Positions 24,116 to 60,346 of a stretch of 64,000 nt of DNA are shown here, piece after piece. Position numbers and translations under genes: made by a program. The notes beneath the pieces were generated by a model, which searched no databases, was not told where the DNA came from, and saw only the letters and a list, made by a program, of their open reading frames with translations. Source of the stretch: Tetradesmus obliquus (lineage: Eukaryota; Chlorophyta; Chlorophyceae; Sphaeropleales; Scenedesmaceae); the NCBI GenBank assembly GCA_030272155.1, contig CP126206.1, positions 4,131,001 to 4,195,000 on the forward strand. Direction: 5' to 3'. Numbering within the stretch: the stretch's first letter is position 1; each line of letters starts with the position of its first letter.

Positions 24116-24131
24116 GCGCCGCTGCTTCATT

Positions 24132-29858: not shown

Positions 29859-29914
29859 GCTTCAAGCTGCCAATCAAGCCTTGAAAATGACTTAACAATG
29901 ACACACTTACTACG

Positions 29915-32900: not shown

Positions 32901-33028
32901 AAGGGGTAGCCTGCACAGGCGTGGCGACAGACAGACAGACAGACAGGGAGACACAGATCTGTCAAGAAATGCACCCGGCACACAGAAATTCCTACCCAGA
33001 AACTCAGATACAACGTAAGACACTCAAA

Positions 33029-33071
<43 letters not shown>

Positions 33072-35075
33072 GGGAGACACAGATCTGACAGGGAACACAT
33101 TCATCTGCCTTGGCCACACAAGCTGCTTTGATGTGCAGCGCCCAGCCGAGCAAGCCTCTTGCTATTTTGCGGCAGCGCGCCAGGACCCACATTATTAATA
33201 GATTTTGCGGCAGCCCGCCAGGACCCACATTATTATTAGATTTTGCGGCAGCGCGCCAGGACCCACATTTTTATTAGATTTTGCGGCAGCGCGCCAGGAC
33301 CCACATTATTATAAGATTTTGCGGCAGCGCGCCAGGACCCACATTATTAATAGATTTTGCGGCAGTGCGCCAGGACCCACAGCTGCCTGCCTCTCATGGC
33401 AGGGGCACAGCAGGGCAACCAACACAGTGTTAAGTTCGCTCATTTGTGGCGGTGGTGACGAGCCAGAAGGACTCCGTCCTCCCTGTTAACAAAAAAACAC
33501 AGTGTTGGCAGCGTTGAGCAAACCTGCAGTGCTTGCAGATGCCGGGCATGCGCCGCCTCCTCAAATGAAATGCATGTCAAATGCACGGCCAGGACCCAGT
33601 GAAGTGCAGCATAACCCACACGACACAGACTTTCCAACCAGGAGTTCACACCCTGAAGTTCACACTCAGAGCTTCCCACCCACCTGTGGCCATGAACAGC
33701 TGCGGGTCAGCCTGCATCTCGTCCACCAGCTGGCTCGGGCTCAGCGGGTGCAGCGCCACGTCATCATCCAGTGCTAGATGACCCCCCCCCCCTTCCCGGG
33801 AGGTTGACACCAAGAAATACACACCAAAACGTTCACACCTAGGGACCGCATCCAGAGGTTCACACCCAGAAATTCACACCCAGTAGTTCACACCGGAAGT
33901 TCCCACCCACCTGTGGCCATGAACAGCTGTGAAACAGCTTCCATCTCATTGACCAGCTGGCTCAGGCTCAGCGGGTGCAGCGCACGTCATTATTCAGCAC
34001 GTCATTATTCAGCACAGCCACTCGGCAATTCACACTCAAAAGTTCACACCCAGAAGTCCACACATACAACTTCACACTAGGAGGATCGCATCCAGAAGTT
34101 CACACCCAGAAGTTCACAGCCAAAAATATGCACAAAATATTGCCATCCAGAGAAACATTTGTTTGAATCCAGAAGTTCACACCCACAGGTCTCCATCCCG
34201 AACTTCACACCCAGAACTTCACCCGCCTGTGGCCATGAACAGCTGCGGGTCAGCCTCCATCTCGTCCACCAGCTGGCTCAGGCTCAGCGGGTGCAGCGCC
34301 ACGTCATCATCCAGTGCTAGATGACCCCCCCCCCCCCCCTTCCCGGGAGGTTGACACCAAGAAATACACACCAAAACGTTCACACCTAGGGACCGCATCC
34401 AGAGGTTCACACCCAGAAATTCACACCCAGTAGTTCACACCGGAAGTTCCCACCCACCTGTGGCCATGAACAGCTGCGGGTCAGCTTCCATCTCATCGAC
34501 CATCTGACAGAGGCTCAGCGGGTGCAGCGCCACGTCATCATCCAGCACATACACCCAGAAGTTCACACCCAGAAGATTGCATCTAAAAGTACACACTCAG
34601 AAGTTGAAGCCAAAAATCTGCACAACATGTTGCCACCCAGATGCTTGCATCCAGAAGTTCACACCCGGAGGCCTGCACCCAGAAGTTCACAGCCTGAACT
34701 TCACACCGGAACTTCACACCCACCTGTGGCCATGAACAGCTGCGGGTCAGCCTGCATCTCATCGACCATCTGACAGAGGCTCAGCGGGTGCAGCGCCACG
34801 TCATCATCCAGCACAGCCACATAGCCGTCGCTGCTGCTGCTGCTGCTCCTGTCACTGCTGCTGCTGTCAAGGCCGCTGGTTTCCAGGCTACCACTGCCCC
34901 ATGTTGCTGTGCTGCTGCTGGGATGATGAGTGTTGTGGTGCTGCTGGTCGTGGTCCGGTTGCTGCTGCTGCTGCTGGTGGCCTTGCAGGACGGGCTGTTG
35001 CTGCTGCTGCTGCTGCCGGTGGTGGCCTTGCAGGTCAGGCTGTTGCTGCTGCTGCTGGTGGCCTTGCAGGACAGG

Positions 35076-35114
<39 letters not shown>

Positions 35115-35212
35115 GCCTTGCAGGACAGGCTGTTGCTGCTGCTGCTGCCGGTGGTGGCCTTGCAGGTCAGGCTGTTGCTGCTGCTGCTGGTGGCCTTGCA
35201 GGACAGGCTGTG

Positions 35213-35243
<31 letters not shown>

Positions 35244-36086
35244 GCCTTGCAGGACAGGCTGTTGCTGCTGCTGCTGCTGCAGCTGCTGCATGGCTGCCAG
35301 TGCCACTTCGATGCCTCCTAGGATGCTGCAGGACAGACAAATAGGCAGGGAAGGTTTGCAACATTAAATATGTGCTGCTGTAGGTGCTGCACGTGCCAAG
35401 CAAGCTGAAGATGTGGCCGAGGCTTGCCGATAAGCACAGCCAAGCAGGCTAAAGCCACACACTCACTTGTGTATTTTCTGGCTACAGGTGTGGGCTAGGC
35501 CAGCGTCAACCAGCAGCACCCACTGCCCGGGGCCCTGGCGAGCAGCATGCAGCACACAGCCCAGCTGTTTCCAACACCTGCTGCTGGTGCTTGCCGCCTT
35601 GCTGCTGCTGCTGCGCCAGCATGTCGTTCAGCGCAGCCACTACAGGGTCGGCGGCTGACTCCACCAGAAACACAAACACTAAATAGAACCACAAACACAA
35701 CCAACAAACAGGCCCACTTGTGAATCTTCTGGCTGCAGGATTGGGCCAGGCCACTCACGCAGTCCACCCAACCAGGATGCTGGATATAAAAAAAATACGC
35801 GCGCGGCAACCGTCTGCCTATGCCTATTAGGGTTCAGCATCGCTCACTTGTGTATCTTCTGGCTGCAGGATTGGGCCAGGCCGGCGTCAACCAGCAGCAG
35901 CCACTGCCCGGGGCCCTGCTGAGCAGCATGCAGCACACAGCCAGGCAGCGCACTGGTAAACACCTGCTGCTGCTGCTGCTGCTTGTCGCCTTGCTGCTGC
36001 TGGCTCAGTATTTCCTGGAGCGCTGCCACTGCAGGGTCTGCAGCTGACTCCACCACAAACACAAACACGCGGGGGCCGCCTGAATG

Positions 36087-36131
<45 letters not shown>

Positions 36132-37923
36132 GCAGCACGCATTGCTATGAGCAGCCGCCACTACAACCCCTGTGCTGCAGGAACATTGGGGCCCATATGC
36201 AGAGCCGAAGCAGTACCGAGCCTTTGCATGCTTGCGGCAATCCCTGCTGCAGGCCTACTCTGCTGTGCTGCAAGCTGATGCAAGCATAGCTTGGGTATTT
36301 TCAGCGCGGAGGGCTCTGAGCAGCAAAGAATGCCTGGTGCTTCTGCTGCTGCTGCTCACCGTAGTGTGCTGCCAGCTGGCTGGCCCAGTTGTCGATGCTG
36401 TGCTGCAAGCTGCTGCAAGCATTGATGAAAGTGCTAGGCAGTGTGGTCACTGCTGCTGCTGCTGCTGCTGCTGCTCACCGCAGTGTGCTGCCAGCTGGCT
36501 GGCCCAGTTGGCGCTGCTTTGCTGCCAGCTGCTGCTGGCATACAACAGTGCTGGGCAGTGTCGTTACTGCTGCTGCTGCCGCTGCTGCTGCTCACCGTAG
36601 TGTGCTGCCAGCTGGCTGGCCCAGTTGGCGCTGCTGTGCTGCAAGCTGCTGCAAACATACAACAGTGCTGGGCAGTGTGGTCACTGTTGCTGCTGCTGCT
36701 GCTGCTCACCGTAGTGTGCTGCCAGCTGGCTGGCCCAGTTGCCCCTGCTGTGCTGCCTGCAGCCCTTCACTGGGCAGATCACGGCCAGCGGCGGCCACGG
36801 TGCCTGCAGCAGCAGCAGTAGCAGCAGCACACCTGTCACAGCTCATGCTGCTGATGTCAGCATTGCAGTCAGAAATATGGTATGTGTGGGCAGCACATGT
36901 GCAGCCTAACAGCATTGAGGCCACAGCAAGATGCGGCACAAGCAGCTGCTCAGACAGGCTGCCACAGGCCAGGCGTCACAGGCAGTGCAGCAGTGCATGG
37001 TATTGGCGCTGGGAGTTGCTCAGGCATGCACGCACAGCAGCAGCAGCAGCCATCTGCTCCCACCTGTGAGCCGGGAGGCCTCGACTTGTATATGCTGTGG
37101 CTCGCAGCTACATTCTGCTGCTGCGGTTCCTGCTGCTGCTGTATTTTGTTTGGCAGGGTGGGTGCAGCTGCTGCTGGCGCTGCTGCTGCTGCTGCTGTTT
37201 GACTTGCTCTGCAAAGCGCTCTATGCTTCAGGCTGCTCCCCTGCTGCTGCTGCTGCTGCTGCTGGTGCTCTGCACCTGCAGTGCAGGCATGCACAGAGAC
37301 CACAGCAGGAGCAGCACCAGACTTGCTCTCTGCTGCTGCTGCTGCTTCCTGCAGTGCTGCTGCGTAGCCTGCTGCTGCCAGCCGTGCAGCCTCCCTGCCC
37401 CTGCGCAGCCCTGACATCGCCCAGCCCACCGTGCCCACCAGCAGCACAAAGCTGGCCTGCAGCTGCGCTTGCAGGAACGTTTGCAGGAATGTTTGCAGGA
37501 ACGTTTGCAGGAAGGTTGTGTGAGGATGTTTGCTGTGGCAGCTCACATTGGCATCGTGCCAAGCAGCAACAGGCATGGTGCCAAGCAGCAAGAGAGGTGG
37601 CCAGCAGCTGGTGGGCACTGCGGATGTCCACTATGCATATGGAAGCTTAATTAGTTGCTGATTGTGCTGAGTGCTGCAGTGCCAGCCTTTCAGGTTTTGG
37701 TACACAGGCATCAGCCCATCAATCACGATTGTGCCAGTTGGTGTACCGCTGGTCTGCTGTGGGTGTGTTGCTGCTGCCACTGCAGAGCAGGTCCACGTCC
37801 CTCAGCTGCGTCTGACTGACGTCTATGTTGAGCATGCAGGTTTAAACCTACCTGGATGGCTTGCACCAAAGGGTGCCGCAGGGCAGTGACCAGGGATAGC
37901 AGCAGCAGTGGCAGTTGAGCCAT
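29915..37923 (-). CDS. Ceramide glucosyltransferase (GT21), complete gene L2
   Basis: Transfers glucose from UDP-glucose to ceramide at Golgi/ER membranes. Minus-strand exons: E1 37923-37852 (MAQLPLLLLSLVTALRHPLV), E2 from 37462 (membrane segment ASFVLLVGTVGWAMSGLRR; 3' end unresolved), E3 36803-36710 (LAVICPVKGC...NWASQLAAHYG), E4 36079-35848 (VFVVESAADP...CSQKIHK), E5 35325-34724 (long Gln insert, then YVAVLDDDVALHP), E6 32910-32618 (GYPFDLV...GGFVWGGAM), E7 31425-31295 (GGYSDDLLLAA), E8 30476-29915 (YWNYLRRQLYVLDTY, three hydrophobic segments, WGGIRYHKAGGRVR). Every junction from E3 to E8 is GT-AG and in phase. Block order matches plant GT21: PxKG, FVVES, CSQKIHN, LDDDV, GG.M, GGYSDD, RYWNYLR. 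Gln/Ser/Ala inserts make it longer than the roughly 520-residue plant enzymes. Introns carry copies of the neighbouring exon halves. Confidence 0.88.
30500..30810 (-). repeat. Copies of the 5' half of L2 exon E8
   Basis: Upstream of intact E8 lie about three copies of the YWNYLRRQL start with acceptor, near 30580, 30700 and 30800. The middle one (30710-30640) retains RQLYVLD-like coding and the CGCAACAGAACGC continuation. TTTAGGG-like sequence follows at 30815-30880. Confidence 0.75.
31025..31950 (-). repeat. Copies of both halves of L2 exon E7
   Basis: Downstream 3'-half copies with donor at about 31220-31165 and 31095-31035. Upstream 5'-half copies with acceptor (TGCAG then GTGTGGCGGCAGGGCGGCTA) at about 31560-31490, 31705-31640, 31805-31740 and 31950-31860. 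The intact exon lies between the two groups at 31425-31295. Confidence 0.85.
32005..32530 (-). repeat. Copies of the 3' half of L2 exon E6
   Basis: Three downstream copies of the GGFVWGGAMLLRA...SKPNILQ segment with donor lie at about 32530-32385, 32290-32160 and 32060-32000. The last is degenerate, with a C-run. Confidence 0.8.
32928..33075. repeat. (AGAC)n tetranucleotide repeats
   Basis: Two ACAGACAGACAG runs (about 32928-32948 and 33030-33072), each followed by GGGAGACACAGATCTG, in the L2 intron between E5 and E6. Confidence 0.9.
33163..33382. repeat. 38-bp minisatellite, about 6 copies
   Basis: The unit ATTTTGCGGCAGCGCGCCAG followed by GACCCACATTATTAATAG repeats with small changes (TAATAG, TTATTAG, TATAAG ends). 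It lies in the L2 E5-E6 intron and does not resemble an exon. Confidence 0.9.
33684..34547 (-). repeat. Copies of the 3' half of L2 exon E5
   Basis: Four downstream copies of DDDVALHPLSLCQLVDEM to FMATGG with a CCACAG|GTGGGT-type donor end at about 34458, 34227, 33911 and 33684. The segments 33768-33935 and 34308-34475, including a long C-run, are nearly identical, so about 540 bases were duplicated as one block on top of the older copies. Between them lie AGAAGTTCACACCC repeats. Confidence 0.85.
35465..35760 (-). repeat. Copies of L2 exon E4 downstream of the intact exon
   Basis: One almost full copy at about 35680-35470 (VESAADPVVAALNDMLAQQQ, then an out-of-frame end near CSQKIHK) and one short 3'-half copy at about 35755-35710 with donor. 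Intact E4 is upstream at 36079-35848. Confidence 0.8.
36350..36665 (-). repeat. Three copies of the 3' half of L2 exon E3
   Basis: Period is about 115-125 bases. Each copy encodes NWASQLAAHYG and ends in G|GTGAGC, followed by CAG-rich intron. They lie near 36660-36590, 36545-36475 and 36425-36355, downstream of intact E3. Confidence 0.85.
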
Positions 37924-38549
37924 CTCGCTGACGCCTACAGCTCCTTGTCGATGCAGGCAGCCTCTAACAGCTTATTTGAACAAAATCATATCTGTATTGC
38001 TGTTGCAGTGGGGGCGATGGACTGTCTGCAGTAGCATCCAACGGAACAGTGTGCGGGCAGGGACAAGTCGACACTGCTACGCACTCGTGGAAGTGTCTCA
38101 AGTTGACACGGAGTCGAGAATCAAATCGTAACAGAGAATCACGCGCGAGCAACAGGAAGCGGTCGGTTGCGCTGGTGCTGGCAAAGCGACCACTGGTCAG
38201 TGACCAGGTCAACAACATGAGGGTTGTAGCGGCAGGGTTGTTCAACAGGGTTGGCAAGTTGTTCAAAGTGTCTCAACACATTGTTCTTCGAGTTGTCGCC
38301 ACCATTTTGCTGCGCCAGACACCCGTCCAGGCCCACACTCAAGCGGTATGGTACTCCTGGCAGCACCAATAACCAGCAGCATGCATATGCCACTCCCCTG
38401 CCTCCGACTGCTGCAACTGTTGCAGCAGCTGCAGACTGTTCATCTTCATCTGTGCCCAAAACCATACCCACGCAGCGATAGCAAGAGCGTGCTGCACACT
38501 ACAAGGGCGATTATGTTCCTATCTGGCCGCAGGCTCACGTGCCTGCTGC

Positions 38550-40102: not shown

Positions 40103-41940
40103 ATGGCCATCGCAGCGCCTGCAGGGCGGCTGCAGATCGCTGGAGAACGTCAGTCGGGCCAGGATGTGCGAACGCAGAACGTCACGGCCGTCAGTGCCAT
40201 AGCGAACATAGTGAAGACGTCCCTGGGCCCAGTGGGGCTAGATAAGGTACTGCCTGCTGCACATATACCTGCCTGATCGGCGCTAGATGCATCGATAGTA
40301 AATACTTATGTATTCATCGTGCGCTACAGATGCTGGTGGACGACATTGGGGACGTGACTGTCACAAACGATGGAGCAACCATCCTCAAGCTGCTTGAAGT
40401 GCAGCACCCAGCAGCAAAGGTGCGGCGCGCAAGCATTGCATGTGCTTGCATGTTGCAGCAGCTGATTGATGTCAACTACCGAAGTTAGTAGTAATCGTTT
40501 GGGCCTGTTTTTTCTGCGCCAGAGGCAGGACGGGATGAGATCATGTGCCAGCAGCAGTAGCAGCAAATGCAGTAGGGTACACGCAGCAGCAGTACATGCA
40601 GCAGCAGCGCCGGCAGCAGTGGCGGCAGCAGCAGCAGCAGCAGCAGCAGACTACCCCAGCAAACAACTCAGCCGCAAGCATACAGCCGCAACGTGCTGCA
40701 TCACACAAAGGCGGCAGGCGGCATCCCTCGCACACGCCATAGCTGCTGGATGCATGGATGCTGGATGCATGTTGCATATCACGGTGTGTGCTGGATGCAT
40801 ACAGCCTTCTGTGGGCGGGGAGCCGCAAAGAAAGTTGTTGCCGTGTTACCATTGTGGCGCTGTGAAGGCTGAGTGCGTTGCATTCGTCCACTGTGCAGTG
40901 CAGTTCAGCCTGCTGTGGGGTGCTGGGGGTGTGCTGCATGTGATGTGCAAACTATGCTTGCCGCCACATGCGCATGTCAAAGCAGATATGGTGGCCTGCT
41001 GTGCAGTGCTGTTCAGCTGCTGCTGTGGGGTGCTGGGGGTGTGCTGCATATGATGTGGAACATGTGCTTGGCACTATGTCAAGCGGCTGTGGTGTGCTGC
41101 TGTTGTGTCCATCTGTGGTGTGCCGGTCACACTTGCCTTGCGTGGCAAGTGTGACTAAAGCTGCCGTTTTTGGGGTTGTAAGGACAGTGGGCAGCTGGTG
41201 ATGTTGTTGATATGGACATGCATGTTAGCACCGGGCGTCACACACCACATGGGCACGTGAAACCAGCATCTAACAGCAGCAACAGGGGCATGTGACAATC
41301 GATCGACATGTCTTGATTCGCTCTGTATGTTGTACAGAGCGTGTACTTTGGAAACGGCCTCTCTGGCAGTGGGTGATTTCGTCTCGATGGCTTCTGGGTA
41401 GCATATCTACAGCAAGCGCAGCAGCAGCAGCAGCAGCAGCGCATGCTGTCATCACATGCTGGGCCGCAGGATTCACCTGGGGCGTGCCATAGGGCTCTTG
41501 CACAGCAGCAGCAGCAGCAGCAACAGCAGCGCATGCTGTCATTACATGCTGGGCCGCAGGAGTTGCCTGGGGCGTGCCGTAGGGCTCTTGCACAGCAGCA
41601 GCAGCAGCAGCAGCAGCAGCGTGCCACAGCCTTTCTGTTGACATGGCTAGTGCCCTTGCAGCGCAACTGTTGTTGATCTTATCTTCACACTTGTCTTGCA
41701 GATCCTGGTTGAGCTGGCAGAGCTGCAGGATGCAGAAGTAGGAGACGGCACCACCAGCGTTGTTACCCTGGATGCTGCACCTTTTCCCAAAGCACCTGTC
41801 ACTGTTGCTGCTGCTGCTGCTGCATTTCTGTGTGCAGATGCTGGTCGAACTGGCAGAGCTGCAGGACGCTGATGTAGGGGACGGCACCACCAGTGTTGTG
41901 ATCCTAAATTTAATCAGAACCTGGCTCTGAACTACTTGGC

Positions 41941-41981
<41 letters not shown>

Positions 41982-42890
41982 ATGTCGTTGTGCAGATCCT
42001 GGTTGAGCTTGCAGAGCTGCAGGATGCTGAAGTAGGGGACGGCACCACCAGCGTGGTCATCCTGGCTGCTGCAACACCTTTTTCCCAAAGCACCTGTCAC
42101 TGCTGCTGCTGCTGCATTTCTGTGTGCAGATCCTGGTGGAGCTAGCTGAGCTGCAGGATGCAGAAGTAGGGGACGGCACCACCAGCGTTGTGATCCTGGC
42201 TGCAGAGCTGCTGAAGCGCGCCAATGACCTGGTGCGCGCCAAGATCCACCCCACCAGCATCATCGCAGGCTACAGGCTGGCCATGCGTGAGGTGCGGCTT
42301 GGTAGGGTTTGGGGTTTAACAGGGTCGAGCAGATGAGATTTAGGTGGCAGCAGCGGCAGCAGCAGCCGCCAACGACCTAGTTGAGATTCACAGGGTGAAG
42401 GGGTTTTTGGGTGAGGGGTCATCTTAGCTGCTGAGCTGCCAAGGGCGCCAATGACCTGGTGCGGGCCAAGATCCACCCCACCAGCATCATCGCAGGATAC
42501 AGGCTGACCATGCGCGAGGTGAGTGGGACTTAGGGTTTTGGGTTTCAGGATCCACAGGGTGTAGGGTTTAGTGGTTGCGGGTTTTTTTAGGGGAGGAGAG
42601 GCAGCAGCAGCAGCTAACGACCTGGTGCGGGCAAAGATCCACCCCACCAGCATCATCGCAGGCTACAGGCTGACCATGCGCGAGGTGAGTGGGACCTAGG
42701 GTTTATGTTTTATAGGGATTGGGGTTGAGGTTGAAGCGGTGTGGTGGGGGGAGAGGCAGCAGCAACCAATGACCTGGTGCGGGCAATGATCCACCCCACC
42801 AGCATCATTGCGGGATACAGGCTGGCCATGCGCGAGGTGAGCGAGGCTGTAGGGTTGTGGGGTTCATTGGGTTTTGTTTGGGCGGGGGGT

Positions 42891-42924
<34 letters not shown>

Positions 42925-45305
42925 CAGAGGCACGGTCACTGTGCCACTTCCTGACGACCAGAGTCGAGCAGTGCACATGTTATCGCCCCTGCGATTATGT
43001 AAGCCGCACTCCCCACATTGCTCCAAGGCAAATGTGCCACCCCCCATGCTGTGAAGCAGCACTACTGCACCACCTCACGCTGTGAACTTCGGCATCAGCT
43101 CTTCAATAAGCTTCACGGCCTGCACCTTGCAGGCCGTGAGGTTTATCGAAGGGCTGATGGCGATCAGACTTTCCCATCTGGGCCCTGAGACGCTGCTGGC
43201 GGCCGCCAAGACCAGCTAGCTGATGTTTTGTTATGACGCTTACTTCCTACTGTGAACTTTGCACTTCCTGCAGGCCGTGAAGTTCATCGAGGAGCTGATG
43301 GCCATAAAGACTTCGCAGCTGGGCCCTGAGACGCTGCTGGCGGCTGCCAAGACCAGTTATTCCGTTGCAATGCTTACTTCCTAGTGTGAACTTCACCCCC
43401 TGCAGGCCGTGAAGTTTATTGAGGAGCTGATGGCGATCAAAACTTCGCAGCTGGGCCCCGAGACGCTGCTGGCGGCTGCCAAGACCAGCATGGGCAGCAA
43501 GATCGTCGGGGCGGAGGGTGATTTCTTTGGCAAGATGGTGGTTGAGGCTATTCAGGCAGTGCAGACCACAGACCAGGTGGGTCTCTCTTTCTTTGTCGTC
43601 CTCTTCTTATTCTGTGCTGTGAATGAGCCCTGGTTTGTGCACATGTGGGATTCAGGGTGTCGCACTTGGCGGCAGACCAGCAAGGGCAGCAAGATCGTTG
43701 GGGCAGAGGGCGACTTTTTCAGCAAGATGGTTGTGGAGGCCATTCAGGCAGTGCAGACCACAGACCAGGTGCGGCCTGGTGCTGCTTCCTGGCCACTGTG
43801 CTGCTGTGTAGCTTCTGTGCTGTTGCTGTACCCTGGTGTTTGCCTGTTTGATTTTGGTGTGTCGCACTTGACAACATATCAGCATGGGCAGCAAGTTCTG
43901 GTAGCTGCGGATGGCGACTTTTCTGGCAAGATGGCTGTGGAGGCGATTCGAGCAGTGCAGGCCACTGACCAGGTGGGTGCAGGGTTCAGGGTTGCCCAGA
44001 TCTGAGCAAAGGGTTTTGGGCGAAGGGTTTGGCAATGCAGCAAGATCTGAGGGCGACTTTTTCTGCAAGATGGTGGTGGAGGCGATTCAGGCAGTGCATA
44101 CCACAGACAAGGTGGGGGGTGCTGCCAATAATTTTGCCGTGTAGTTTCTGTGCTGTGGTTATGCCCTGATATTTGTCTGTTTTTTATTGCCAAATGCCTG
44201 TGTGCAGTCTCGCAGAGCGGCAAGGTGCGCTACCCGGTGCGCGCCATCAACATCCTCAAGGCCAGCGGCAGTTTAATGAATATCTAACATCAAACTTTAA
44301 ACACCTAAACCCTTGTCATTCATGCAGAACGGCAAAGTGCGCTACCCGGTGCGCTCCATCAACATCCTCAAGGCCAGCGGGCAGTCGCACACCTAAACGC
44401 AGACAAGTACAAAAGTTTAACCCTAAACCCTGTGTCTTGACAAAAGTTGAACCTAAAACCCGTGTGTATTTTCTTCATAATGCAGAACGGCAAGGTGCGC
44501 TACCCGGTGCGCACCATCAACATCCTCAAGGCCAGCAGGCAGTCCTCAACCCCAAACCCAAACTCAAACATAAAACAAAACCTAAACCACATTGCTGCCT
44601 GTTGCTGTGTGTCAACATGCCGTCTGTCAAGTGAATGGCATAGTGTGCTACCCCGTGCGCTCCATCAACATCCTCAAGGCCAGCGGGCAGTCGCACACTT
44701 AAACCCAGACAAAGTTTAAACCCTAAACCCTGTGCATTGACTTCATATTGCAGAACGGCAAGGTGCGCTACCCGGTGCGCTCCATCAACATCCTAAAGGC
44801 GAGCGGGCAGTCTGCGCTGCAGAGCCAGCTGATCAAGGGCTACGCCATAAACTGCGCCCGCGCGGCACAGGGCATGCCGACAAGGTGTGTTGTTTATTTC
44901 TTGTTATGTGTATGTGTCGAGCTGCATAGCCAGCTGATCAAGAGCTACGCCATGAACTGCGCCCGCGCAGCACAGGGCGTGCCCACGCGGTGCGTGTCTG
45001 TTGTGCTGTGTCCTGCTTTATGTCTCTGAACAGCTGCTTCTGTTACTTGTGGCACATCAAGGGCTGTGCCATCAAATGCGCCCGCGCAGCACAGGGCGTG
45101 CCCACGCGGTGCGTTTGCAAAGCATTGTGTTGCAGACAGCAGGGCAGTTCCTCGTCGTGGTTGGCTTGTGGCATTGGGTATGGTGCCATGGGTTCTTGCG
45201 CAGCAGCAGCTGGCGCTGATGTTGAAGGCATGCTGTGGGCTCTTGGCATTTGCTGGGGCTGCTGCAAGCTCTTGCTGCTGCGCACATCGATGATGCTGGA
45301 ACTAA

Positions 45306-45349
<44 letters not shown>

Positions 45350-48300
45350 AGGGTGTCGCCTGCGCGCATCGCGTGCCTGGACATGAACCTGCAGAAGGCG
45401 CGGCTGCAGATGGGAGTGCAGGTGCGGGGGGCTGGTTCAAAGTGATAGTACCAGCTTCTGCTGCACTCTGGGCATGCAGCGCTAGCTGCACTCTGGGCAT
45501 GCAGCGCTAGCTGCACTGCAGCAACCCTGCCTGTGCTTGCCGTTCAACCAAACGCAAATGCGCACCAAACCCAACATCTGCTCTCTGCTGCAGGTGCTGG
45601 TGACAGACCCCAAGGAGCTGGAGGCCATAAGGCTCAGCTTTGCCCCACCCTCGCCCAACCATATCTGCTGCTGCTGCTGCCATGCAGGTGCTGGTCACGG
45701 ACCCAAGGAGCTGGAGGCCATCAAACACAGCATGCCCCGCCCCCACTTTCTCCAACCCCCCTCGCTGAACCCTTTCTCCCTGTGCTGCCATTCTGCTGCA
45801 GGTGCTGGTGACTGACCCCAAGGAGCTGGAGGCCATCAGGCAGCGCGAGTTCGACATCACCAAGGAGCGCATCGCCAAGATCCTGGACGCGGGTGCGGTT
45901 TTTAGCAGGTTCAGGGTTTTGTTTAGGGTTTGTTTGTGGCTTGCTGCTGGCTTTGACATCACCAAAAAGCGCATCGCCAAGATCCTGGACGCGGGTACGT
46001 TTCAGGTTTGTTGCCTTGTACACCCTTTTTCAAGATTTGGTCTGCTGCTGATGGCTTGTTATTGGCTGCCGGAGTTGACATCACCAAGGAGTGCGTCGCC
46101 AAGATCCTCGACACAGGTGCGTCTCAGTGTTTTGTTTGAGCGAGCGGCTTTGCATGATTGTCTGGGTTACGTGTCTGGCCTGCTGCTGTCTTTGATGTTG
46201 TTCCCACTTACTGGATTACTGGATACTGGACGCGGCTGCGGGCTGAGCATGTTCAGTGATGCAGAGGATTGCAACACAGATTTCCTTGCCGCTGCTGCCA
46301 CAGGTGCCAACTTGGTGCTGACCACCAAGGGCATTGACGACAGCAGCCTCAAGTACTGTGTGGAGGCGGGCGTGCTTGCTGCTGCCCTGTTAAAAATCCG
46401 CTCTTTATTGTTATTAGGAGCATCGCCGCCAATTTTCTGCGCTGTTGCAGCCGCCAATGTGGTGCTGTCTGCAAGGCTCTCCCGGATCCTGCGCACGCCG
46501 TCACCAACTTGTTTGCTGACCAAGGAATGTGCAATGCGTCACTGCTGCAGGCGCCAACGTGGTGCTGACCACCAAGGGCATCGATGACAGCAGCCTCAAG
46601 TACTTTGTGGAGGCGGGCGTGCTGGCGGTGCGCCGCGTGCCGAAAGACGACCTCAAGTGAGTCGCGCGACGCAGTTTTATCTCTCTGTCATTAATGTTGT
46701 TATTGTTGTCACACTGTCACCAGGTGCTGTTGCGGCACGTTTGTATCCATGTTTTGTTGTGATGTTAAAAGCAGGCTCAAGTACTTTGTGGAGGCGGGCG
46801 TGCTGGCGGTGCGCCGCGTGCCCAAGGACGACCTCAAGTGAGCTGCGGATCAGGGTTTAGGCCCATGGCCGACAGGTTTTAGGGTTTAGGTTTACTGAAA
46901 ATTATGCAGCTCACTCAAGTTGTAATTGTAACAGTTTAATCAGGTCATGGGTGCCACAGGATGCCAGTTTTGCTGGCGGTGCGGCGCGTGCCTAAAGATG
47001 ACCTCAAGTGAGTAGCCGTGTTGTTATATGTTCAGGGGTTTAGGTGTTTCAAAACCCCAACCCCAAACCCCAACATGCGGCCCCACAGCACCGCATTCAC
47101 ACCTGTTGCCTGACACACCTGAGCTTCACTCACACCCCGTTGCTGCTGCTACTGCTGCTGCTGCTGCTGCTGCTGCAACAGTAGTTGGTGTGCTTGCCGA
47201 CATGGAGGGGGATAAGAGCTTTGACGCCAGCTGCTGCTGCCGCTGCTGCTGCTGCTGCTTCCAGGCGCATTGCCAAGGCCACTGGCGCAACAGTAGTTGG
47301 TGTGGGTTGTGCAGACATGGAGGGGGACGGGAGCTTCACTCACACCTGCTGCTGCTGCTGCTGCTCTTGACCCCCTCAGGCGCATCGCAAAAGCCACTGG
47401 AGCAACAGTAGCTGGGCGTGCTTGCTGACATGGAGGGCGACGGGAGGTCCACTCATACCCCTGTGCTGCTGCTGCTGCTGCTGCTTTCCTGATCCCCGCA
47501 GGCGCATTGCCAAGGCTACTGGCGCAACAGTGGTTGGTGTGCTGGCAGACATGGAGGGCGATGAGAGCTTTGACGCGAGCTCCCTGGGCGAGGCGGAAGA
47601 GGTGACGGAGACGCGCGTGGCTGATGATGCGATGGTGAGTGGCTGCATTTGCCTGCGTTTCATTATGCCTGCGTTTCATTATGGTGGGTGAATGCATTCG
47701 CCTGCGTTTCATTATGGTGGGTGAATGCATTCGCCTGCGTTTCATTATGGTGGGTGAATGCATTCGCCTGCGTTTCATTATGGTGGGTGAATGCATTCGC
47801 CTGCGTTTCATTATGGTGGGTGAATGCATTCGCCTGCGTTTCATTATGGTGGGTGAATGCATTCGCCTGCGTTTCATTATGCCTGCGTGTCATCATGCAA
47901 TCACCAGGACTGGCGCTGCGCTTTTATGCTGTGTAAATGTTGTGTGGGCGTGTGGGCGTGCGGCTACTGCAAGCATTGGCAGACGTGGGGCGGTGGGGCT
48001 TTCACAGCCACATGAGCCGTTGCGCTTTGTCCCTGGGCGAGGACGAGGAGGTGACAGAGACGCGCATGGCTGATGATGCGATGGTGAGTTGCATTGAGCA
48101 CCACACCTAGTCCTGAGCTGTGACATGTTTTTTTTTTGTTATGGTGAGCGCGGGGCTTCTGCAAGCATTGGCGGTGGGGGTTTGACAGCCACAGAGCTTT
48201 GGGTGCAAGCTGCCTGGGCGACGCGGAAGAGGTCACAGAGACGCCATGGTGGGGGTCCATCATTTGCTTCACAGGCAAAACCTGTTTCGCATCAAAATTT

Positions 48301-50902
48301 TGAAACACCTAGTGCTAGGGCTTTTGGTTTCATCTTTGCCGCCGGGCTGAGTGGCTGTCACAGATGAACTCAAGAGCCATAGCGCCGCGAGCTCTGCGTG
48401 CACCATGCAGCGCGTGCTGCGCATGCATATGTGCTGCTTGGCTTCCCCAGCTTGCACATGTTTCTGTGACAGTGGCTGATGACAAACAGCGTATTTTTCT
48501 CTTTTCGCAGGTCATGATTAGCGGCGCCGCGACCAGCCGTGCCGCCACGCTGCTGCTGCATACGGGAATCAAAAGACAATTAATTGACAAGCAGCTTGAT
48601 GTCTATCCTTTCTTTGCAGGTCATGATCAGCGGCGCCAAGACCAGCCGCGCCGCCACGCTGCTGCTGCGCGGCGCGAATGACATGCACCTGGACGAGATG
48701 GACCGCAGCCTGCACGATGCGCTGTGCGTGGTGAAGCGCGTGCTGGAGAGCGGCAGCGTGGTGCCAGGTGCGGGTCGGGATGAAGCCTTAGGCTGTAGGG
48801 TTTTGGTGGTTAAATTTAGGGTTTGGTATGGTGTTTTTTTTTTGGGGGGGGGGGGGGGGAGGCGCTCAGTGCACCTGGACGAGATGGACCGCAGCCTGCA
48901 TGATGCACTGTGTGCTGTGAAGCACGTGCTGGAGAGCGGCAGCGTGGTGCCGGGTGCGTGTGGTTTAAGCCTCAGGCTTTTGGGCTTGTGGTTTGTCATG
49001 CTCAAATGTTGCGGTAGGTTTTTAATTCAAAGGGTTTTTGTGGGGGATTTGGGCAACTGGACGAGATGGACCGCAGCCTGCACGACGCGCTGTGCGTGGT
49101 GGAAGCGTGTGCTGGAGAGCGGCAGCGTGGTGCCAGGTAAGTTTGAAGCCTTAGGCTTTAGGGTTGTATGCTAGCTTGTGGGGGTCTTGATCAGGTTTTT
49201 AGGGTAAGGATGGGGTTTTGTAGACGTTTTTTGGACACCTGGACGAGATGGACCGCAGCCTGCACGCCGCGCTGTGCGTGGTGAAGCGAGTGCTGGAGAG
49301 CGGCAGCGTGGTGCCAGGTGCGGTGCGGGGTTTAAGCCTCAGGGTTTAGGGTTCCTGGTGCCAAAATTTGTGGTTTAAGGTTGGTTTGTGGGGTGTTGTG
49401 CACCTGGACGAGCTGGACCGCAGCCTGCACGACGCGCTCTGTGTTGTGAAACGCGCGCTGGAGAGCGGCAGCGTGGTGCCAGGTGCGGCGCAGGGTTTTA
49501 AGCCTCAAGTTTTGAATGTACATGTGCTTGATTGTGGGGGGTCTTTAACCGTTTTTTAAGGGTCTCACTGGGTTTTGGCAGAAGTTTTTTGGGCACCTGG
49601 ACGAGATGGGCCGCAGCCTGCACGACGCGCTGTGTGTTGCTGCGCCTGCAACTGTTTGTGTCCCTGCAGGTGGCGGTGCGGTGGAGACAGGTCTCGGCCT
49701 ATATCTTGAGAACTTTGCCACCAGCCTGGGCAGCCGCGCATGCGCTGTAACCCAATGCCTCACCCTCCGAATGTTTTTCTTATTTGAACTACAGGTGGCG
49801 GCGCTGTTGAGGCTGGCCTGTCAGTGTACCTCGAAAACTTCGCCACCAGCCTGGGCAGCAGGGAGCAGCTGGCCATTGCGGAGTTTGCGGACGCGCTGCT
49901 GGTCATCCCCAAAACCCTGGCCGTCAACGCCGCAAAGGTGAGCACTTGTCTACTTGTTTTGTAGCCTGTGCGGCACACAGCACTGCTGGATGCGCTGCTG
50001 GTCATCCCCAAAACCCGGCCGTCAAAACCCTGCGCGCCTTCCACCACACCGCACACAGCACTGCAGCTCCTGCTGCTTCCCACTGACACTGTTGTCCATC
50101 TACTTTGTTCCCCACGGGATGCCACGGAGCTGGTGGCCAAGCTGCGCGCCTTCCACCACACCGCACAGGCCAGCCCAAACAAACACGCACTGCTGCGGCT
50201 ACTCACTTGCCTAACCCCTAAACCCTGGACCCTAAACCGCTGCTGCTCTTGTGCTTTTGTATGTTATTTCAGGACGCTACGGAGTTGGTGGCCAAGCTGC
50301 GCGCATTCCACCACACCGCCCAGGCCAGCCCCGACAAGCGGGCGTTGGGGCAGGTGGGGCTGGACCTCATCAACGGGGAGGTGGTGAACAATGTGGAGGC
50401 GGGCGTGCTGGAGCCAGCACTGAGCAAGACAAAAATGATCCAGGTAGGCAGAATCGCCGGTCTATATGGTTTATCGGGTTATTTTAGGGTTTTGATGGGT
50501 TTATTTTTTGGTTGATATGGTTCTTTTTAGGCTGGGGCAGATGGGGCTGCACCTCATCAACGGGGAAGTGGTCAACAATGTGGAGGCAGGCGTGCTGGAG
50601 CCAGCACTGAGCAAGACAAAGATGATCCAGGTAGGCAGAATAGCCTGGTTTGCTAAGATTTATGCCTGTTCACAGCCTTAAGCTGAACGCTTTGTTTGTA
50701 TTTTTGTGCGCCGTTTGCCATGGAGGCCGCGCTGACCATCCTGCGCATCATCTTTGCCTGTTGGCAGCCCATCATCTCATAATCGCTTCCCTTTCATTTT
50801 CAACGTTTTGCAATGCAGTTTGCCACGGAGGCTGCGCTGACCATCCTGCGCATCGACGACCTCATCAAGCTGGACGCGCCGGAGGAGCAGGGCGAGGAGT
50901 AA
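40103..50902 (+). CDS. CCT1: Chaperonin CCT subunit alpha (TCP-1 alpha)
   Basis: One of eight subunits of the cytosolic ATP-dependent TRiC/CCT folding chamber (actin, tubulin and others). Exons: 40103-40246, 40330-40419, 42130-42291, 43406-43576, 44754-44884, 45352-45421, 45802-45892, 46551-46656, 47502-47634, 48620-48767, 49795-49937, 50273-50443, 50819-50902. All junctions are GT-AG with matching phases; the sum is 1,644 nt, 547 residues, the normal subunit length. Nucleotide-site motifs are present: [10 protein letters not shown] (about 39-48), [16 protein letters not shown] (about 92-99) and GGGAVE (about 416-421). Alpha-type features include [50 protein letters not shown] and [18 protein letters not shown] near the C-terminus. 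Introns from exon 2 onward contain about 40 partial exon copies, described separately. Confidence 0.96.
40905..41610. repeat. Tandem duplications inside CCT1 intron 2
   Basis: CTGTGGGGTGCTGGGGGTGT and flanks recur about 108 bases apart (about 40905-40960, 41013-41065). A second pair (about 41437-41510, 41531-41605) repeats CATGCTGGGCCGCAGGA...GGGCTCTTGCACAGCAG with CAG runs. Neither resembles an exon. Confidence 0.75.
41702..42836 (+). repeat. CCT1 exon 3 echoes: three 5' halves, three 3' halves
   Basis: 5' halves after TGCAG at 41702-41780, 41838-41905 and 41996-42075 encode [18 protein letters not shown] variants. Intact exon 42130-42291. 3' halves at about 42427-42518, 42612-42684 and 42762-42836 encode [13 protein letters not shown](A/T)MRE and end at GAG|GTGAG. 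CTG runs precede some acceptors; TTAGGG-like patches follow the donors. Confidence 0.92.
43092..43160. repeat. Inverted copy of the exon 4 acceptor forming a hairpin
   Basis: 43092-43124 is the reverse complement of the exon 4 start (TGCAGGCCGTGAAGCTTATT in reverse) and lies 3 bases from the direct copy 43128-43160; about 28 of 33 positions pair. This is the only inverted echo I found. Confidence 0.75.
43133..44111 (+). repeat. CCT1 exon 4 echoes: two 5' halves, three 3' halves
   Basis: 5' halves 43133-43216 and 43274-43355 ([19 protein letters not shown] variants). Intact exon 43406-43576. 3' halves about 43679-43768, 43885-43972 and 44035-44111 ([19 protein letters not shown] variants), each ending at a GTGGG or GTGCG donor. 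The copies carry substitutions and one has an in-frame stop. Confidence 0.92.
44216..45109 (+). repeat. CCT1 exon 5 echoes: four 5' halves, two 3' halves
   Basis: 5' halves 44216-44272, 44328-44387, 44486-44545 and about 44632-44692 encode [17 protein letters not shown] variants; introns between them contain CCCTAAACCC-like sequence. Intact exon 44754-44884. 3' halves about 44923-44989 and 45052-45109 encode [24 protein letters not shown] peptide with CG|GTGCGT donors. Confidence 0.92.
45594..46115 (+). repeat. CCT1 exon 7 echoes: two 5' halves, two 3' halves
   Basis: 5' halves 45594-45633 and 45688-45724 ([13 protein letters not shown] variants, the second with a one-base deletion). Intact exon 45802-45892. 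3' halves about 45947-45995 and 46073-46115 ([19 protein letters not shown]) ending at G|GTACG or G|GTGCG. Confidence 0.9.
46304..47007 (+). repeat. CCT1 exon 8 echoes: two 5' halves, two 3' halves
   Basis: 5' halves 46304-46378 ([20 protein letters not shown]) and 46451-46475. Intact exon 46551-46656. 3' halves about 46775-46837 and 46963-47007 ([17 protein letters not shown] and [12 protein letters not shown]) with CTCAA|GTGAG donors. Confidence 0.9.
47175..48248 (+). repeat. CCT1 exon 9 echoes: three 5' halves, two 3' halves
   Basis: 5' halves about 47175-47231, 47265-47340 and 47380-47455 ([19 protein letters not shown] variants), each after a CTG-rich acceptor. Intact exon 47502-47634. 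3' halves about 48027-48083 ([17 protein letters not shown]) and 48197-48248, ending ATG|GTGAG or ATG|GTGGG. Confidence 0.9.
47650..47885 (+). repeat. 33-bp array of 5' splice-site copies
   Basis: About seven units of ATGGTGGGTGAATGCATTCG followed by CCTGCGTTTCATT. The true exon 9 donor region reads ATG|GTGAGTGGCTGCATTTG then CCTGCGTTTCATT, so the array is an amplified exon-intron junction. Each unit keeps an ATG|GTGGGT donor. Confidence 0.88.
48511..49639 (+). repeat. CCT1 exon 10 echoes: one 5' half, five 3' halves
   Basis: 5' half 48511-48565 ([16 protein letters not shown]). Intact exon 48620-48767. 3' halves about 48869-48952, 49054-49136, 49237-49317, 49400-49482 and 49593-49639 ([14 protein letters not shown] onward) mostly ending CCAG|GTGCG. 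Period is about 160-185 bases; TTTAGGG-like sequence and G-runs lie between them. Confidence 0.92.
49670..50750 (+). repeat. CCT1 exon 11-13 echoes
   Basis: Exon 11: 5' half 49670-49750, intact 49795-49937, 3' half about 49985-50030. Exon 12: 5' half about 50119-50181, intact 50273-50443, 3' half about 50534-50630 ending CAG|GTAGGC. Exon 13: 5' half 50714-50750, intact 50819-50902. The order is always 5' half, intact exon, 3' half. Confidence 0.88.
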
Positions 50903-52448: not shown

Positions 52449-55373
52449 ATGATCAGGCAGCTGCTTCTGGTGCTGTTTGCGTGCGCAGCTGGAGTGCACT
52501 TGGCCCGTGCTGAGCCAGGTGATGCCAACCGGGGATTCGGCATCCCGATGGACCGTTACAATTCGATTGTTTTGAATCCTTGTTTGCGTTACTTCTCGAT
52601 CCTTGCCTGGACATCAGCTTTCTCTGCTTACTCGACAGCAGAGGAGGGCGTTGGCGCCGATTGCTGACTGAGCAGCGTCTTGCAGCCCATGCCAGCCGCT
52701 GCTATGGTTTCAGCGTCTCCATCGGATTCTGTTGTCGGTGCTCCAGGCCCAGCAAACGGCAGAACCGCTGCAGCGTGAATATTCTGCAGCTAAGTGCCTG
52801 GCCTGACACACCATCATTGTGCAGCAGCAGGACAGGCCATGCACAGCACTGTACTCTGCTACCAACCCACCTTTCTGTGCAACCCATATTACATCTTACG
52901 ACTGTCCTCTGTCCTGCAGGCACTGCAGGTGCCGCGCGCCTGCCTGCGGAGTCACAGCAGCATGCCAACAGCGCCAGCAGCAGCAACCTGCTTGCAGGAA
53001 ACGCCAACAGCGTGGCCTGGTTTGTGCAGCTGTCAGACCTGCACATCAACAAGTGGGTGCACCACGAGATCCTGCCCGACTTGCAGGAATTCGGTCGACG
53101 GGTGTTGACCGGCGTGCGGCCTGGCGCGCTGCTCATCACTGGGGACCTTGTTGACGCAAAGACGCGGCCAGAGGGCAGCCAGCAGCACGAGGAGGAGTGG
53201 CAGGTGCGCTGATGTGTGCGTACTCTTTGATGATAGGCTACTCACAACCAAATGCATGCAAGCAGGCTGGTGAGGGCAGCCAGCAGCACGAGGAGGAGTG
53301 ACAGGTGTGTTTTGCTGGATGTTTATTAAGCAGGAGTTGGGCAGCTGGACGCTTTGGTGGTGAAGGTCTGTAACGTTGTGTGCGCTGCTCATCACCGGGG
53401 ACCTGGTGGATGCCAAGACGCCGCCTGAGGGCAGCCAGCAGCACGAGGAGGAGTGGCAGGTGCGTGGGTGCAGATAGGTTGTGCTCGTGTGTTTTGTGCA
53501 GCAGTCTGTTGATCTGAAGTGCTTGTCTGCAGCACCAGGAGGAGTGGCAGGTGCGCTGATGTGTGCTGTGCAGCAGTCTGGTTCTGGTGCTGTGCAGCAG
53601 TTGCCTGCAACAGGCACTGGATGCGCATAGGCAGCATCAGCAGTGAGGAGTGGTAGGTGCGCTGATGCTGACAGAGGGATGCATGTGGAGAGGATTGGCA
53701 GATGCTTGCAAGCAGGATAGACTGTTGATTGTGGTGATGTTTTAGGTTAAGCAGCAGTCAGATGGTGTGAAGCAGTTGCCTGCAACAGGCACCGGATGTG
53801 CATCGTCAGCATCAGCAGTGTGAGTAGCATTGAGCGTGCGCGGTGGTAGTTCAGCAATGGGATGCGTGCCTTTCCTCAGCTTCTAATTTGCCACTTTTTT
53901 TCTCGTCATCGCTCCTGCTGCTGCCGCTGCTGCTGCTGCCTGCAGGCGTATGAGCGCGCGTGGCGCCAGCTAGCACAGTCAGCGCAGCTGCCAGCCAGCG
54001 CAATCCTCGACCTACGCGGCAACCACGACGTCTTTGACACTCTGCGCAACAGCCCGCAGGACTGGTTTGCAACCCACTCTGCAGCAGCAGCAGCACATGG
54101 CAGGCAGGCAGCCGCCACGCAGCGGCTGTGGCTGAGCACGCTGCCAGGTCAGCTGCTGCTGCAGCCGCAGCAGCAGCACAGCAGGAAGCAGCGCCGTGGC
54201 AGCGGCAGTGAAGGGCAGCGCAGGCAGCTGCTGCAGCAGCAAGGCACTGGCGTGGGCAACAGCAGCAACAGCAGCAGCAGTGCAAATTCAGCGCAGAAGC
54301 TTCACTCGGCAGGCCGTGCTGTGATGGCAGCAGCAGATGCGGCTGCTGCGGCTTGTCCTGCAGCGCTGCTGCTAGGCATCGATCTAGCGCCAAACATCGG
54401 CCTGCACAGTCCCACCAACTTCTTTGGGGTGGCTGGGCCTGCGCTGCTGCAGCAGCTGCAGCAGCGCCTGCAGCAGCTGCGCAGCAGCAGCAGCAGCAGT
54501 GGGATCGCTGACGTGGCGCTTCCTGCAGGCTGTAGCACGTCCATACCTATCATCAGCTACAGCCACTACCCCTTTAGCACTGTAGCGGCAGCCTACGGCA
54601 GCAGCAGCGGCGTGGCAGACGGCGGCGGCCCGCCGGCGGTGCAGGGCGGTCGGGCGTTACGGGATCTGTTATGTTGTCATGACGTGTCCGCGCATCTCTC
54701 GGGCCACCTGCATGATTTGTTAGGCCCGAGGATGCAGGTGTTATATGACAAGGCGGCGCTGCTGGGTGGCGTGTTTGGGCGCAGCAGGCTGCGGGCGCCG
54801 CTGCACTGGCAGGGGGCTGGTGCTACTACTGCTGCTGGTGGTGGAGGAGCTTTCTTGGCAGATTTGGAGGTGGGTGTTTCATACCTTTGCTTGGCAGCTG
54901 ACGTTATGCACTGGCAGGGGGCTGGAGGTGGTGCTGCTGGCTGCTGGTGGTGGTGCTGAGGGAGGTGGTGGTGGTGGTGGTGCTTTCTTAGCGGACTGGA
55001 AGGAGCGCCAATGCTGGCGGCTGGCGGCTGATGGCCGTGAACTGCTTGACTAACAAAGCTGCTGCTGCTGCTGTTGCTGCTGCAGTCTGCCGATTGGAAG
55101 CAGCGCCGGCGCTGGCGGCTGATGGCAGTAGACACTGGCTCAGTCAGCTTTGCTGACCTGCACTTCCGGCGCAGCCCCTGCAGCGCAGCAGCAGCTGCAG
55201 CTGGGGCTTGCGTCAGCAGCAGCAGCAGTGACGGCAGCAGCAGCAGCAGCAGCAGTGCGGCGTACAGCTATGAGGTGAGCGCTGTGGATGGCAGCAGGGT
55301 TGTAGCGCAGCATGTGGTGATGCTGACGTGGCCGCCTGATGGCCGCTACAGCCCTCTCTCTGCTGCAGAAAAG

Positions 55374-55405
<32 letters not shown>

Positions 55406-56043
55406 AGATGTGAATGAGGCAGCAGGCGGCAGCAGCAGCATGTTGTGGGTGCGTGCGCTGGTGCTGCCGCTGCAGCTGCTGGGTGAGGGCAGCGCCAAGC
55501 AGCTCGGCAGTGTGACGCTGCAGTGGTTTTGTGTGGGGTCTGAGGCTGACCTGGCGGCAGGGTTAAGGCTTCCCAGCCGCGGCAAAACCTTGGGCAGTGC
55601 GCAGATGAAGCCTGTTGGGCAGCCAGGGGGCAGCACTAGGGATGAGCAGCAGCAGCAGCAGAAATCCAAAGCAGCAGCAGCAGCAGCAGCAGGCAGCCAA
55701 GACAGCGGTGGTGAAGATGAACATATGTATGCAGTAGAGCAGCCGCAGGTGTTTGCTGCTGCGGTGCCGCTGGAGCAGCAGGAGCTGCAGCGCAGCTGCG
55801 GCAGCAGCAGCAGCAGCAGCAGCAGCGCTGCTGCTGTGGTGCTGCTGCAGGTGGTGGTGACTGATGATGCTGGGGGCACTTCAAGCAGTGAGCTGCGCCC
55901 AGTGCTGCTGCCACAGCATGTAGAAAGATCCGCAGCAGCTGGAGACCGCAGCAGCAGCAGCAGCAGCAGTGCGGCAGCGCCGCGCAGCAGGCACAAGCAG
56001 CTGGAACAAGCTGTTGCTGCTGCTGGTGACGGAGCATTTGTCA

Positions 56044-56077
<34 letters not shown>

Positions 56078-59715: not shown

Positions 59716-60346
59716 GCTGTGCATCATGTGGGCAAGGCGCTGCAACTGGTGGCGCGAGAGTGTCATATGTAGCCTGGCGGGCGTTGTTGCCTTGCAATGA
59801 ACAATGGAGGCAATGGTCTTGTGCTGCGTATGGGCCTGTGTCATTGTTAGTGGGCACGGTGGTTGGCTGGCTGCCGCTGCTGCTGGCACTGGCGCTGCGG
59901 CATGTGCGGCAGGACGTGGCGGCCGGCAAGGCGCGGCGGCGCGATTGAAACGATCTATAGTTGGATCTGAGGTACTGAACTGTGTGTGCAGCCTGGCACT
60001 GCATATGTAGCCTGGCACTGCGTTGCCGCCTCCTACTGAGGGGCACGCTAGCAGCGCTCGTTACTTGTCCCTGGGCACTCACAACAGGCACTGCCGCAAA
60101 CAGCACTGCAGCCTGGCACTGCATATGCAGCCTGGCACTGCATATGCAGCCTGGCACTGCGGCGCGTGCGGCTGGCTGTGGTGCCTGGCAGGCGCGGCGG
60201 CGCGGGCATACTGCAAACGCACGTGCGTATGGGCGTGTCGCATTGTTAGTGAGCCCGGTGGTTGGCTGGCTGCCGCTGCTGCTCGGCCTGGCGCTGCGGC
60301 GCGTGCGGGCTGATGTCGCGGCCGGCAAGGCGCGGCGGCGCGACTG
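59716..60346 (+). repeat. Two downstream copies of the last-exon tail, with stop codons
   Basis: AAYGPV.L.V......GWLPLLLALALR to AGKARRRD and a stop recurs at about 59822-59948 and 60225-60346 after the true stop at 59713-59715. Both keep an open frame. They lie in the presumed 3' region. Confidence 0.88.

Follow-up and report, generated by a model that had tools for sequence, protein, structure and literature searches.

Arrays of half-exon echoes with a protein-coding look in the introns of CCT1 from the alga Tetradesmus obliquus

Results

CCT1 and its half-exon echoes

We analysed a 64,000-nucleotide stretch of the genome of the green alga Tetradesmus obliquus (C16:4131001-4195000, hereafter the window; the genome comprises 104,662,953 bases in 17 contigs), and in particular the essential chaperonin subunit gene CCT1, whose introns are packed with partial copies of the neighbouring exons that we refer to as echoes. 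CCT1 lies on the plus strand and has 13 exons, at window positions 40103-40246, 40330-40419, 42130-42291, 43406-43576, 44754-44884, 45352-45421, 45802-45892, 46551-46656, 47502-47634, 48620-48767, 49795-49937, 50273-50443 and 50819-50902, the last of which includes the stop codon. Its 12 introns total 9156 bases (mean 763). The intact exons alone join to a protein of 547 residues that is identical to the public T. obliquus protein P0001 and aligns, over residues 8-543, to TCP1-alpha structures; the proposal of an initial annotation of this DNA, that a normal subunit is made from the intact exons, is thus borne out.

Echoes were located by searching every intact CCT1 exon against the whole gene with BLAST, leaving aside five further matches of 18-20 nt that reflect a motif common to exons 8 and 12. 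We found 42 partial exon copies in adjacent introns, 41 of them direct (20 upstream and 21 downstream of their exon) and one inverted, where the initial annotation had estimated about 40. Both upstream and downstream echoes are present at exons 3, 4, 5 and 7-12, the same nine exons for which both had been claimed; exon 13 has a single upstream copy and exons 1, 2 and 6 gave no echoes in the exon-against-gene search. Exon sequence in echoes accounts for 2670 of the 9156 intron bases (29%). The spacing of neighbouring copies has a median of 141 bp; it lies between 94 and 247 bp in 40 of the 41 cases, the exception being 449 bp. The real introns gave 45 BLAST matches (the 42 copies and three matches to the short motif), compared with a mean of 0.15 and a maximum of 1 when the introns were shuffled 20 times in 3-base blocks.

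The echoes are as follows, all being on the plus strand unless stated otherwise and each array extending from the first to the last coordinate given. Exon 3 is preceded by three copies of its 5' half (exon bases 1-74, 1-68 and 1-74, at 41702-41775, 41838-41905 and 41996-42069) and followed by three copies of its 3' half, all with a GT donor (42418-42518, 42613-42684 and 42766-42836). Two 5'-half copies (43133-43216 and 43274-43356) and three 3'-half copies (43674-43768, 43880-43972 and 44049-44111) flank exon 4, whose start is also found as the inverted 31-nt copy, on the minus strand at 43089-43119. For exon 5 there are four 5' halves (44218-44272, 44328-44386, 44486-44544 and 44634-44692) and two 3' halves (44921-44986 and 45056-45105), and for exon 7 two of each (45594-45633 and 45688-45723; 45952-45994 and 46064-46112). 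Exon 8 has one echo of its 5' part (46306-46379) and two of its 3' part (46770-46837 and 46971-47007). At exon 9 we found three 5' halves (47166-47232, which does not have exon bases 1-13, 47265-47336 and 47380-47446) and two 3' halves (48030-48083 and 48193-48244, the latter without the exon end). Exon 10 has one echo of its 5' part (48511-48559) and five of its 3' half (48870-48951, 49053-49136, 49236-49317, 49399-49482 and a trimmed copy at 49593-49637). Exon 11 has one 5' half (49670-49734), with 10 silent and two amino-acid-changing differences, and one part of its 3' half (49988-50025); exon 12 has two 5'-half echoes (50030-50055, an internal fragment, and 50118-50182) and one 3' half (50533-50630); and the single copy of the 5' part of exon 13 is at 50714-50749.

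Other repeats are also present in these introns. A 33-bp minisatellite with 6.5 copies at 100% identity lies near the exon 9 donor in intron 9 (47667-47881), several CTG/CAG runs are distributed across 40583-47259, some of them near echo acceptors, and telomere-type motifs resembling CCCTAAA/TTTAGGG were seen by eye between echoes at 44290-44760 and 48770-49600.

Polarity of the echoes

The direct echoes have a constant polarity: the exon end is absent from all 20 upstream copies and the exon start from all 21 downstream copies, exactly as the initial annotation had described. The exon start is reached by 18 of the 20 upstream copies, with the AG kept in 15 of these 18, and the exon end by 18 of the 21 downstream copies, with the GT kept in all 18. 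The claim that echoes carry the splice site of their junction therefore stands for the copies that reach the junction (fully for donors and largely for acceptors), but not for the five echoes that stop short of it (those beginning at 47166, 50030, 48193, 49593 and 49988). Eight introns hold both 3' halves and 5' halves, and in each of them the 3' halves of the preceding exon come ahead of the 5' halves of the following one. Every array of 5' halves ends with the intact exon, and every array of 3' halves begins with it. Furthermore, self-matches in several arrays run from the exon part across the junction into the intron, and for 14 of the 36 echo flanks compared by forced 40-nt alignment, the similarity to the own-exon flank surpassed that of 95% of other-exon flanks.

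Tandem duplication of segments spanning exactly one exon-intron junction accounts well for the position and polarity of the echoes, and the direct orientation and adjacency of the copies, many with a recognisable intron flank, directly support the proposal that one breakpoint lay in the exon and the other in the intron. If a segment running from intron into exon were duplicated, the downstream copy would run on into the remainder of the exon, leaving the upstream copy as a 5' half with an acceptor; if the segment ran from exon into intron, the upstream copy would be intact and the downstream copy would be a 3' half with a donor. Each such event would lengthen the intron by one unit, and repeated events would build the arrays. 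The polarity is strict because of this geometry and because one intact exon must survive, and it is therefore not a separate selection rule: the "strict polarity rule" of the initial annotation is without violation in CCT1, but it is a consequence of how the units would duplicate. The polarity also points to tandem duplication and away from random insertion. The inverted copy and the direct echo at 43133 are arranged head to head, 13 bases apart, which suggests that some events were fold-back template switches.

The inner cut points of the echoes fall close to the middle of the exon, at a median fraction of its length of 0.45 (5' halves) or 0.46 (3' halves) and with a range of 0.33-0.72. For the eight exons with usable cuts on both sides, the medians differed by 12 nt on average versus 37 nt for independent uniform cuts (p 0.00045), in a test that was chosen after viewing the data and that has a crude uniform null. 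Junction-centred units of this size, together with selection against near-complete exon copies, would tend to yield near-middle cuts, but we assign no firm cause to them. We rejected splicing at the intra-exon cut points, as inspection of the inner ends of the 5' halves by eye revealed no consistent GT.

Splice sites on the echoes

Echo splice sites are of normal strength. With a scoring matrix derived from the true sites of CCT1, which favours echoes because they are homologous to the training sites, we obtained median scores of 5.89 for echo and 5.58 for true donors and of 5.16 for echo and 4.52 for true acceptors, differences that were not significant; the score of the weakest true site was equalled or exceeded by all 18 donors and by 15 of the 18 acceptors on echoes. 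What most echoes do not have is a partner site. A good donor was found within the unit for none of the 18 acceptor echoes versus all 11 intact internal exons, and a good acceptor within the unit for four of the 18 donor echoes, the latter figure standing without a control for the acceptor side. Exon definition would therefore skip most echoes, and it is probably what keeps them silent. Taken with the inventory and the array order, the site scores uphold the view that this process both grows introns and generates decoy splice sites.

There is one case in which part of an echo is included in a public isoform. P0003 (556 amino acids), known here as a public annotation model, exactly matches exon 10 joined to a 27-nt micro-exon (49291-49317, plus strand) and exon 11. 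The micro-exon lies inside the third exon-10 echo and uses the donor of that echo, and its AG is unique to that echo among the exon-10 copies.

Echoes outside CCT1

Besides the rest of the window, we sampled ten chaperonin-family regions (L013-L022) and eight stretches of 10 kb chosen at random (L023-L030). A simple gene finder for other genes was tried and dropped, since in CCT1 it recovered 13 of 13 exons together with 28 false ones. We relied instead on a polarity test, free of gene models, that takes two local coding copies and determines beyond which of them the coding sequence carries on. Outside CCT1 there were 67 polar and six anti-polar clusters (34 versus 4 for 5' halves and 33 versus 2 for 3' halves), part of the rest of the window yielding no cluster in this test. 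On the CCT1 coding strand the same test gave 19 polar and six anti-polar clusters, and was thus wrong in 6 of 25 cases although the true polarity there is perfect; the anti-polar cases outside CCT1 are therefore within test error. In this sample of 18 loci plus the window, we did not see the two halves equally often on both sides. Local repeats made up a fraction of the sequence that ranged from 0 to 0.38 over the 18 loci and exceeded 0.25 in two of the eight random ones, so the phenomenon is patchy; the local-repeat search was empty for one chaperonin-family locus, L014 (C2:2083000-2091500), the other nine such loci giving 0.09-0.38. Echoes are confirmed as a real and strong feature that is not limited to CCT1.

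Within the window, echo arrays are also present in two diverged copies of a minus-strand gene (11500-24500 and 27000-38500, genes A and B respectively), and some of the echoes can be paired between the two by their flanks. Judging by a motif rather than by a family search, this pair is probably glycosyltransferase-21 (GT21)-like. In gene B, where intact copies were assigned by reading, 14 of 14 echoes of five probes are on the predicted side. Gene A is less clean, three of four fragments of the first probe being without the donor end, and it also has, at 22701-23664, a tandem array of 222-bp units (4.4 copies at 97%). Each unit seems to contain an entire exon, both splice sites included, which would depart from the half-exon pattern; the 97% identity is a sign of recent amplification. 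A further gene with echo-like coding repeats is present on the plus strand at 52449-60500, presumably a TMEM62-like metallophosphoesterase by motif, and dense local repeats without clear codon periodicity were observed at 113-1222 and 57086-57898.

Echoes diverge mainly at silent sites

Comparison of the 41 direct echoes with their intact exons revealed differences at 28% of silent but only 3.8% of amino-acid-changing sites. The ratio of amino-acid-changing to silent divergence (dN/dS) was 0.11 (bootstrap 0.084-0.143), with 34, 30 and 183 differences at the three codon positions, and between echoes it was 0.20. Under the forced alignment the divergence of the intron flanks was 0.31 (donor side) and 0.25 (acceptor side), compared with 0.38 and 0.37 for flanks of different exons and 0.41 and 0.40 for shuffled flanks. 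The flanks have thus diverged nearly to the alignment background, at least as much as silent sites, whereas amino-acid divergence is several-fold lower; the echo units are therefore old. We do not favor a third-position mutation bias, given that the intron flanks diverged at least as much as the silent sites.

The echoes also show signs of decay. Frame-shifting indels are present in 11 of 41, and at 60 of 70 amino-acid differences (none of which is a stop codon) the intact residue and not the echo residue is present among five relatives, the reverse being seen once. As echo residues are mostly not found among relatives, the amino-acid changes look late. Consistent with this, columns in which several echoes depart from the exon, not all alike, were silent in 24 cases and not in five, and columns in which the intact exon stands alone were silent in 16 and not in one, while single-echo changes were 43 silent versus 44 not. 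Older changes seem to have passed selection and recent ones not.

A third-position excess was also found in the sampled loci (169/185/508 by codon position in 9211 nt), with reading frames set by coding score. The same contrast was strong in CCT1 (53/45/216) and in the random locus L025 (5/6/34) and weak in L018 (16/15/25) and L021 (29/34/55). For the GT21-like pair we obtained a dN/dS of 0.16 between echoes and their own intact copy, 0.14 between intact A and B and 0.26 between echoes, totals that are unsafe in that the Y3 rows of gene A used 15427 as the intact copy where 15306 is indicated. Nine A/B echo pairs matched by flank and added by hand gave 31/96.4 silent and 29/293.6 other differences, which we have not used as evidence.

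Discussion

That the echoes retain a coding appearance is a solid finding for CCT1, and exchange with functional exons is, as far as we can infer, its best explanation. We favor a scenario with three layers and consider it to have a somewhat better than even chance of being correct: (i) segments spanning a single junction would be duplicated in tandem, repeatedly; (ii) the extra splice sites would be tolerated, since a half-exon offers just one of the two sites needed by exon definition; and (iii) half-exons would be swapped between echoes and functional exons across chromosomes, such that an echo would have acquired most of its divergence during the time its sequence was part of a functional exon and would have decayed freely only of late. 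Layer (i) is supported directly by the arrays. Layer (iii), which is brought in to explain the silent bias, is the weakest step. The initial annotation was correct in its overall reading as regards duplication, intron growth and decoys, but it did not foresee that divergence would be mainly silent, which plain duplication followed by decay does not explain.

The reasoning for layer (iii) comes from simulations of 150 chromosomes with four echoes at a theta of 0.04, one run per setting. Budding, within-chromosome exchange and rare between-chromosome exchange all gave a dN/dS of 0.55-0.61, while frequent between-chromosome exchange gave 0.31 and 0.08 and raised silent diversity in the functional exon. 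Selection acting via exchange within one chromosome was rejected on this basis (simulated dN/dS stays at 0.55-0.59), and gene conversion from the intact exon was rejected by the argument that it too would give 0.5 or more.

Several observations weigh against this scenario. Some CCT1 echoes look neutral (the echo at 43133 has five silent and six other differences), the third-position excess in the GT21-like pair is weak (25/32/38 and 22/15/39), and 22 of 36 echo flanks were indistinguishable from other-exon flanks under the forced alignment. Silent and flank divergence were uncorrelated (rho -0.13) and amino-acid divergence rose with flank divergence (rho 0.29, p 0.02), in 63 non-independent pairs whose near-background flanks leave little power either way; because the control put flank divergence near background, the support drawn from decoupled flanks is also weaker. 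The simulated silent divergence (pS) was about 0.12 at a theta of 0.04 versus 0.28 observed. By extrapolation, exchange needs a very diverse population with a theta near 0.1, while P0001 and P0002, the two nearest full-length proteins, differ by 1 of 547 residues.

The simplest alternative is that each echo was copied once from its neighbor and then drifted, its coding look being a remnant. Such a history explains position and polarity as well as the signs of decay (the frame-shifted echoes and the echo-specific amino-acid differences), and it fits both the rise of amino-acid divergence with that of the flanks and the weak third-position excess of L018 and L021. It predicts, however, a dN/dS of at least 0.5, as the simulations bore out, versus the observed 0.11 in CCT1 and 0.16 in the GT21-like pair (with one copy misassigned), and local copying gave simulated echo-echo values of 0.65-1.11 versus the observed 0.20 and 0.26; we therefore regard it as quite unlikely. 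Silent-only divergence with a short period of decay would be obtained directly if the echoes had instead been templated by diverged functional versions of CCT1, such as those of a hybrid parent, an introgressed or homeologous genome or a lost paralogue, and then decayed, and outside donors would also account for the mutual differences among copies in one array, in addition to their differences from the intact exon. Yet when exon 3, the one exon tested, was searched against the genome, the only matches were at its own array (at least seven) and to chaperonin paralogue sequence at 75% (at least one), and arrays of up to five echoes, as at exon 10, would require several donors. We consider outside donors unlikely.

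Could the echoes themselves be functional coding sequence in alternative mRNAs? Their codons are conserved, none of the amino-acid differences is a stop and in P0003 a 27-nt piece of an exon-10 echo is included in frame, but this isoform repeats nine residues within a conserved chaperonin, which makes a function doubtful, and the frame shifts and the general lack of a partner splice site also speak against coding use, which we judge to be very unlikely. Stacking of haplotypes or strains head to tail in the assembly would produce functional silent divergence, with read errors giving an appearance of decay. Whole haplotype arms would not, however, place 3' halves before 5' halves in each of the eight introns with both kinds; in addition, there are up to five echoes per exon half, the assembly is in 17 contigs for 104.66 Mb, and an echo is used in a public isoform. 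An artefact is accordingly the least probable of the explanations that we considered.

If exchange between echoes and functional exons does occur, the arrays might have a broader role. It is conceivable, although we hold it to be rather less than an even prospect, that echo arrays constitute a reservoir of half-exon alleles moved between storage in the intron and service in the functional exon by unequal interchromosomal exchange, that purifying selection thereby reaches DNA that is not in the mRNA, and that the stored copies raise the silent diversity of the gene. Recycling of half-exons would mean that unexpressed sequence is selected through its later use, a new kind of constraint on introns. 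Echo arrays in any case raise the question of why the copies still look protein-coding. They also offer a natural series of intermediates for intron growth, every event leaving a copy and a decoy splice site, and their dozens of normal-strength, apparently ignored splice sites lend themselves readily to testing exon definition in an alga. In the tabulation of PMC5966456 the mean intron of this alga is 462 bp, compared with 230-302 bp in the four other algae tabulated.

A search of open-licence papers returned no report of such half-exon arrays, but several known systems resemble them in part. Processed (cDNA) copies do not, as every CCT1 copy carries part of a single exon and none joins neighbouring exons. 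Tandem exon duplication, with alternative or mutually exclusive exons, likewise places additional copies of exon sequence beside exons; these are whole exon copies with both splice sites, however, and none of the 41 direct CCT1 echoes is whole, the one seeming whole-exon array being that in gene A. Introner elements likewise fill introns with repeated sequence, but they spread to unrelated genes, unlike the exon 3 echoes, which were found at their own exon only. In multigene families undergoing concerted evolution, copies diversify and swap and variation depends on the whole copy set. We propose that the CCT1 copies would diversify and exchange in a similar manner, the difference being that they are exon halves within one gene, with one copy in the main mRNA.

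There is closer precedent in intron creation by tandem duplication. In the AGGT-type process (the Rogers model and Hellsten et al., as described in PMC4974935), an intron is created when sequence within an exon is duplicated in tandem. CCT1 is similar in that tandem duplication has altered intron content, and different in that the duplicated unit straddles a junction already present and does not require an intron at a new site; we found no new intron position inside a former exon, since all 42 copies are intronic and the intact exons give the full protein. The potato RdRp gene comes nearest, having undergone a single junction-spanning tandem genomic duplication that gave one new intron with a cryptic donor (PMC4974935). 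CCT1 has the features of junction duplication: 41 of 42 copies are direct and all 42 are in introns adjacent to their source exon, the unit includes intron flank (by the self-matches and by the minority of flanks above the 95th percentile), and the intact exon is at the predicted end of each array. As described for potato (PMC4974935), splice signals are inherited from the parent copy and there are some differences between copies. Where the potato gene underwent one event and gained an intron, CCT1 has dozens of units on both sides of its exons, longer existing introns and an unchanged main protein.
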